This document shows positions 42,942-43,080 of a stretch of 64,000 nt of DNA, piece by piece (position 1 is the stretch's first letter; every line of letters begins with the position of its first letter). The notes under the pieces were generated by a model, which did not search any database, was not told where the DNA came from, and saw only the letters and a list, made by a program, of their open reading frames with translations. Position numbers and translations under genes: made by a program. The stretch comes from Brachionus manjavacas. Its lineage: Eukaryota; Rotifera; Eurotatoria; Ploima; Brachionidae. The DNA lies in NCBI GenBank assembly GCA_019054805.1, contig JAHQIY010000012.1, positions 124,001 to 188,000 of the forward strand, read 5' to 3'.

Positions 42942-43080
42942 GGAAGACAAAGTTAAGTATTCTCTTAGGGTGAGAATAATGCCTGGTTTGTGGTTCCAGG
43001 CTAGTCGTGAGCAAAGCCGAGATCGCAGCTGGTGCTCGGTTGAGTGGCTTTGTTCACTGACGAACGTCCCACGGTCTTCC
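42942..43080 (+). ncRNA. Structured RNA of unknown class, copy 2
   Basis: Closing stem GGAAGAC/GTCTTCC (42942-42948 with 43074-43080) encloses three hairpins: TATTCTC-TTAGGGT-GAGAATA (42958-42978), GCCTGG...CCAGGC (about 42981-43001) and a long arm GTGAGCAAAGCC...GGCTTTGTTCAC (about 43007-43058) with inner CCGAG/CTCGG. Together they form a four-way junction. Copy 1 at 14016-14152 keeps every helix although bases differ. The element is antisense to PDZD8 and ends 64 bases from its first splice donor. It is G+C-rich compared with the intron. I see no protein-coding frame shared by the copies. Confidence 0.6.

Follow-up and report, generated by a model that had tools for sequence, protein, structure and literature searches.

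A large RAGATH-11 RNA family adjoining twister ribozymes in an apparent animal genome

Two homologous, G+C-rich blocks lie on opposite strands of the 64,000-nucleotide stretch of DNA analysed here (the window), and the question they raise is what kind of RNA they encode and in what company that RNA occurs. The initial annotation located the blocks correctly, recognised their homology and regarded them as a two-copy structured RNA of unknown class. Comparison of the window with Rfam by cmscan supplied the class, as both blocks matched RF03148 above its gathering score of 79.4 bits; copy 1 gave 100.5 bits at 42959–43077 (+) and copy 2 gave 91.3 bits at 14018–14135 (−). Both are RAGATH-11, a named Rfam family, so that 'unknown class' fails by the Rfam comparison that the initial annotation had itself set as a test, and the families above cut-off in the window were RAGATH-11 twice and U5 snRNA once. 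A search for the RAGATH-11 core pattern with up to three mismatches found just these two matches in the window (0 expected), so the description as two-copy holds there; it fails in the genome (114 Mb, 61 contigs), where 809 cores match GGTTTGTGGTTCCANGCTAGTC with at most two mismatches and the reversed control gives 0. Our main point is that RAGATH-11 is paired with twister ribozymes across a large family, apparently in an animal, and the best reading overall, which we think probably correct on the sequences at hand, is that twisters process a large family of non-coding RNAs in which RAGATH-11 is the structured payload.

Table 1. Features of the window and subfamilies of RAGATH-11 copies in the genome
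Feature	Position	Strand	Evidence or description
RAGATH-11 domain, copy 1	42942–43080	+	cmscan RF03148, fold, covariation
Closing stem, copy 1	42942–42948/43074–43080	+	
Twister, copy 1, decayed	43085–43139	+	RF03160 15.7 bits, E 1.2; alignment with relatives
RAGATH-11 domain, copy 2	14014–14154	−	cmscan RF03148, fold
Twister, copy 2	13957–14011	−	RF03160 50.3 bits, E 3.3e-10, aligned 13959–14009
U5 snRNA gene	13655–13767	+	82.2 bits
NopRA1 ORF	14224–15147	−	Pfam NopRA1 PF16201, E 5e-35
Npa1 ORF	21277–23370	−	Npa1 match
ORF, non-LTR reverse transcriptase fragment by eye	24978–25610	+	no Pfam match at 0.001
252-aa ORF	43081–43839	−	no Pfam match
Subfamily A			twister 1 – linker – RAGATH-11 – twister 2; predicted excised RNA ~403 nt (401–413)
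Subfamily B			order as in A, other linker and other hairpin A, head-to-tail arrays; predicted excised RNA 313–314 nt
Subfamily C			RAGATH-11 and 3′ twister only; window copies, L039–L042, L046

Copy 1 consists of the closing stem, hairpin A, hairpin B with the loop UUUGUGGUU, a long arm and a conserved GAACGUCCCAC strand. RF03148 as printed by Rfam has three arms without a closing stem; the window copies add a stem of ~7 bp, which yields a four-way junction. The closing stem, both hairpins and the long arm are present in both copies, and so are the exchanges on which the initial annotation had relied, namely an A-U pair of hairpin A replaced by G-C and several C-G/U-G exchanges. The z-scores of folding were −6.0 for copy 1 and −2.8 for copy 2, with no shuffle of 200 as stable.

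Covariation was assessed in an alignment (A1) of 11 divergent copies hand-picked from 18 representatives of 47 non-identical copies. Left out were L028, L031, L072 and L073, which have a longer, different hairpin A, and the apparently decayed L076, L077 and L081. A1 was not fitted to the structure, but the structure came from one A1 row, which favours the paired percentage: 89.9% of cells are paired in the 44-pair structure, compared to 35–50% with the partners slid by one to three columns. Both sides have changed in 15 of the 44 pairs, against a shuffled mean of 8.4 (reached in 0 of 500 shuffles). The closing stem has such changes in four of its seven pairs, yet only 76% of its cells are paired. 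Further pair types, one of five measures, were not above the shuffles (371/500). Run by itself on A1, RNAalifold recovered hairpin B together with most of the long arm, and its structure contained neither the closing stem nor hairpin A. The hairpin B loop may also form a GUGG/CCAC pseudoknot with the GAACGUCCCAC strand; the bases of this pseudoknot are invariant in A1. The fold scores and the 11-copy covariation support what had been proposed from the two window copies, a structured RNA read from this strand and under selection on pairing; covariation in further homologues, named beforehand as a condition of that proposal, is present across the 11 divergent genome copies.

Directly 3′ of each window RAGATH-11 and on the same strand, cmscan at a permissive threshold placed a type-P1 twister without the P3 arm, a neighbour that the initial annotation had not noticed. 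The RAGATH name implies nearness to twister or hammerhead ribozymes, and such nearness is found for both window copies and for many dispersed copies. Like RF03160 (Twister-P1), intact twisters of this kind have the UAAC cleavage word, the CGGUCCCAAGCCCGG core, the GGAGGG word, P1 and P2, and they are predicted to cleave themselves at U-A. They differ from it in the P3 arm, which is missing from the RF03160 alignment of the copy 2 twister, and in score: every match is below the gathering score of 67.2 bits (best in the window 50.3; 0 of 62 scored genome matches above), intact copies reaching 35–50 bits. The P1 of the copy 2 twister comprises 6 bp, CCAUCA (14011–14006) with UGAUGG (13962–13957), its core word is exact (13976–13990), and the cut is predicted between 14005 and 14004, ~11 nt past the RAGATH-11 closing stem. 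In the copy 1 twister the core word (43104–43118) carries three mismatches, C replaces the U of the cleavage site, and both the GGUCCC and the GGAGGG word have changed; because these core words are altered, this twister is very probably dead. Counting changes at positions conserved in three relatives (a loose alignment) is a weak guide to such decay, since copy 1 has 8 of 36 in the twister and 9 of 105 in RAGATH-11 while copy 2, with its intact twister core, has a similar 7 of 36 and 10 of 105.

The genome holds 1515 exact twister cores GCCGGTCCCAAGYCC (reversed control 0). From 5232 first-look RAGATH-11 candidates, all 47 that were scored passed the RF03148 cut-off; weaker copies fall below it (L075 60.9, L076 46.9 and L077 41.4 bits), and 14 control genomes gave no RAGATH-11 candidates. 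Neighbours were counted for zero-mismatch cores outside contig C18 against exact twister cores. Among the matches listed, 46 dispersed cores, 27 have twister cores on both sides, 6 only 3′, 2 only 5′ and 11 none, the last group including window copy 1 and also copy 2, whose twister is one base off the exact search word. The copies fall into three subfamilies (Table 1). Units of the subfamily B arrays measure ~540–556 bp on C18 and ~641 bp on C24, the latter with some 327-bp partial units, and in both arrays they keep the order of twisters and RAGATH-11 seen in dispersed copies. The RAGATH-11 core of L028, a B-type copy, is 92–99% identical to subfamily A over ~94 nt; the rest of L028 gave no BLAST alignment with the subfamily-A rows shown. 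Twister core words are kept in most listed copies. In subfamilies A and C, and likewise in B twister 1, P1 is 3–8 bp long; its first pair is mismatched in B twister 2, one L031 twister 1 and L079. Read by eye, P2 pairs CUCU with AGAG in twister 1, and twister 2 has CUAU/AUAG. Three lone copies, L044 (96.0 bits), L045 (95.0) and L063 (84.2), lack a twister match at E 0.001; each has its own closing stem by reading, although the folded L063 stretch did not form one.

Pairwise differences between 13 subfamily-A copies average 0.028 for twister 1, 0.034 for the linker, 0.049 for RAGATH-11 and 0.043 for twister 2, but 0.403 for the 20 columns 5′ of twister 1. Within subfamily A, then, RAGATH-11 is no better conserved than the linker, and its conservation is visible between subfamilies. 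For L055, L056, L057 and the L049/L062 pair, flanks of ~250 nt have hardly any or no similarity among themselves or with those of the other compared copies, the weak exceptions being downstream scores of L024 with L056 and L057 (z 5–7) and of L029 with L062 (z 5.3). Because near-identical cassettes stand in such dissimilar flanks, it seems that a whole twister-bounded cassette can move, beside ordinary duplication; strong homogenisation within old, diverged flanks may alternatively account for the pattern. Part of the copy number is due to ordinary duplication, since other copies have flanks in common: upstream strongly so in 6 of 12 compared copies (L001, L011, L021, L024, L029 and L030), and downstream in L005/L011, L011/L029 and L005/L023. 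At the borders, whose positions are approximate, none of 17 copies had an exact direct repeat longer than those of shuffles (smallest p 0.085), and these 17 gave no convincing target-site duplications. In L056 a 6-base TAAATA repeat abuts both borders, which may be one duplication or chance. No autonomous partner element was found.

In the mechanism that we propose, a longer transcript would carry twister 1, linker, RAGATH-11 and twister 2, and self-cutting by the twisters in vivo would free an RNA of ~403 nt (A) or 314 nt (B, arrays) with RAGATH-11 near its 3′ end. In favour of this mechanism, the P1 of twister 1 averages 4.63 bp compared to 2.47 for shuffled partners (19 distinct strand pairs; 0 of 2000); the P1 of twister 2 speaks against it, being only weakly above shuffles (0.0175). 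The predicted ends, a 5′-OH and a 2′,3′-cyclic phosphate, would be a substrate for RtcB, and an RtcB ligase gene is present in the genome. In subfamily A the freed ends GCCGUCA (5′ of the second cut) and UGGUGGC (3′ of the first twister) pair over 7 bp in every one of the 18 distinct combinations, which count as one observation because both inner strands are identical throughout. This joined-end P1 exceeds the native P1 of either twister (3–6 and 4–5 bp), and shuffling puts the chance of at least 7 bp at 0.002, or 0.012 with two proximal pairs taken as inherited. Since these ends form a 7-bp P1, the subfamily A product is probably ligated into a circle, as in retrozymes. The subfamily B ends showed no in-register pairing (0 of 3 combinations), the P1 of twister 2 beginning with a mismatch, and the whole 403-nt excised RNA folded no better than shuffles (z −1.26). 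Thus, the pairing is suggestive of circle formation that would be specific to one subfamily. Copies would spread as a twister-bounded cassette and by local tandem amplification; insertion of an excised circle alone fails to explain the borders because twister 2 is intact in the genome copies, which also retain some bases 5′ of the first cut. We also infer a protein that recognises RAGATH-11. The window copies belong to the subfamily with a 3′ twister only, one with its twister intact and lying just downstream of a URB1-like gene and the other with its twister dead and RAGATH-11 intact. We propose tentatively, and as something short of probable, that these hundreds of cassettes do in nature what engineered twister circle makers do: two different twisters would excise an RNA whose joined ends rebuild a stronger P1, giving in bulk a RAGATH-11 circle that is mobile, functional or both.

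The processed-RNA reading has to be weighed against other accounts of the same copies. A twister-bearing family of non-LTR retrotransposons or SINEs would need no circle: the twisters would trim the 5′ end of the RNA and mark its 3′ end, and RAGATH-11 would be gripped by a reverse transcriptase, for example of an RTE element. Hundreds of genome copies suit such a family, as does the loss of similarity at the end of twister 2 in many copy pairs together with a 5′ extent that varies (~−288, −311, −403 and −540 from the core), and a passage of PMC7761336 announces, as work in preparation, RTE retrotransposons whose 5′ end carries truncated, active twisters. However, other copy pairs have downstream flanks in common, those of L005/L023 reaching +461, the border repeats stay within the shuffles in the 17 copies despite the 6-base repeat of L056, no 3′ tail repeat was seen by eye, and the ORFs of three 9–10 kb regions are short transposon-like fragments only. 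We regard this account as rather unlikely, although it comes closer than those below. The SINE that the initial annotation had offered as one alternative to a gene fits poorly, and the gene does so too: border repeats do not rise above shuffles in those 17 copies, and many copies adjoin twisters.

Conventional multicopy RNA genes, comparable to those of snRNA or 5S, are in our view improbable. Twisters would then process the ends, arrays would arise by unequal crossing over, concerted evolution would keep the copies alike and mobility would be incidental. Whole units in head-to-tail arrays, a conserved cassette between diverged flanks and flanks common to several copies agree with this, and the twister-less lone copies L044, L045 and L063 keep 84–96 bits and, by reading, their closing stems; against it, near-identical cassettes also stand in unrelated flanks, and the L063 stretch folded without its closing stem. 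A further account confines itself to the window, where RAGATH-11 and twister would form the 3′ end of an upstream gene, the twister removing the poly(A) tail and the fold protecting the new end. Copy 2, which begins ~70 nt past the stop codon of the same-strand NopRA1 (URB1-like) ORF and has an intact twister just 3′, has the expected arrangement, but it is one case, and the twister of copy 1 is very probably dead; we give this account very little credence.

RAGATH motifs have reportedly been described in earlier papers. The name RAGATH-11 does not occur in the open-licence literature that we searched, and we found no published function for it there. The present copies are like the Rfam family in matching the full-length model above cut-off, both in the window and in the 47 genome candidates counted above, and they differ from it in being multicopy in an apparent animal genome and often paired with twisters. 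Statements in parts of PMC11061315 identify RAGATH-18 as the guide RNA of IS607 TnpB and, as of 2024, describe the functions of 33 RAGATH RNAs as still unknown; RAGATH-18 is also treated in a portion of PMC8191799. RAGATH-18 comes from the same naming series and, in the same sections of PMC11061315, is a RAGATH that partners a mobile-element protein, but it is a family separate from RAGATH-11, and we noticed neither a nuclease gene nor a guide segment with the present copies. A genome with hundreds of ribozyme-adjoining RAGATH-11 copies makes the question of RAGATH function directly testable.

The closest known systems are the metazoan retrozymes, described in sections of PMC7229834 as type I hammerhead elements with RtcB circularisation, alongside engineered twister circles. 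As with the non-LTR retrozymes covered in those sections, our units are small repeats with self-cleaving ribozymes and tandem copies, and RtcB circles are only predicted here. They differ from the type I hammerheads in short tandem repeats portrayed in the same part of PMC7229834 in having two distinct twisters per unit and a second conserved structured RNA. cmscan gave no hammerhead match in the window, in 9 loci at the gathering score or in 14 loci at E 0.001, so the hammerhead that defines a retrozyme is missing from them; small tandem and dispersed units are present, their circular RNA being a prediction, and the joined-end P1 fits subfamily A only. An extract of PMC8216279 reports circular RNAs in which one strand carries hairpin ribozymes and the other carries twisters. 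We found no report in the open-licence literature of twister-based circular RNA elements with two ribozymes per unit. If the proposal is right, circular RNA elements made by ribozymes would no longer be confined to hammerheads but would include twister elements, each unit having two ribozymes.

Other origins were considered and rejected. In prokaryote genome contigs the core pattern gave three exact matches, which we took as chance, with no Rfam match at E 0.01 and the remaining structure absent. A viral origin was rejected likewise: one core pattern had 0 matches in viral contigs, a pattern with 14 specified bases had 77, none with the hairpin B word (17 specified bases, fewer than 6 mismatches) within 130 nt upstream, and phage records gave no match at E 1e-5. 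Part of the subfamily-A linker looks like an open frame by eye; we rejected the linker as protein-coding because copies differ by a one-base indel.

Several observations concern the surroundings of the copies. In the window, the NopRA1 and Npa1 ORFs are probably exons of one URB1-like gene, and the U5 snRNA gene lies tail to tail with RAGATH-11 copy 2. An animal source is indicated by the CCDC24, NopRA1 and Npa1 matches together with the U5 gene; the spliced-leader word of bdelloid rotifers is absent, even with three mismatches allowed. The 252-aa minus-strand ORF, which may resemble TEX2, runs with its final codons antisense across the twister of copy 1; the minus-strand GAGGTAAGT lies at the 3′ edge of that twister, so a 5′ splice site may directly adjoin the insert. 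Elsewhere in the genome, L078 (C1:1293800–1294200) is a lone twister with different downstream sequence and with the RAGATH-11 core absent from the 401 bases examined, possibly a third kind of twister element. Finally, the L033 region holds an ORF (9381–9986, −) that by eye resembles a fragment of a retrotransposon integrase, and three RAGATH-11 cassettes occur there in both orientations within 10 kb.
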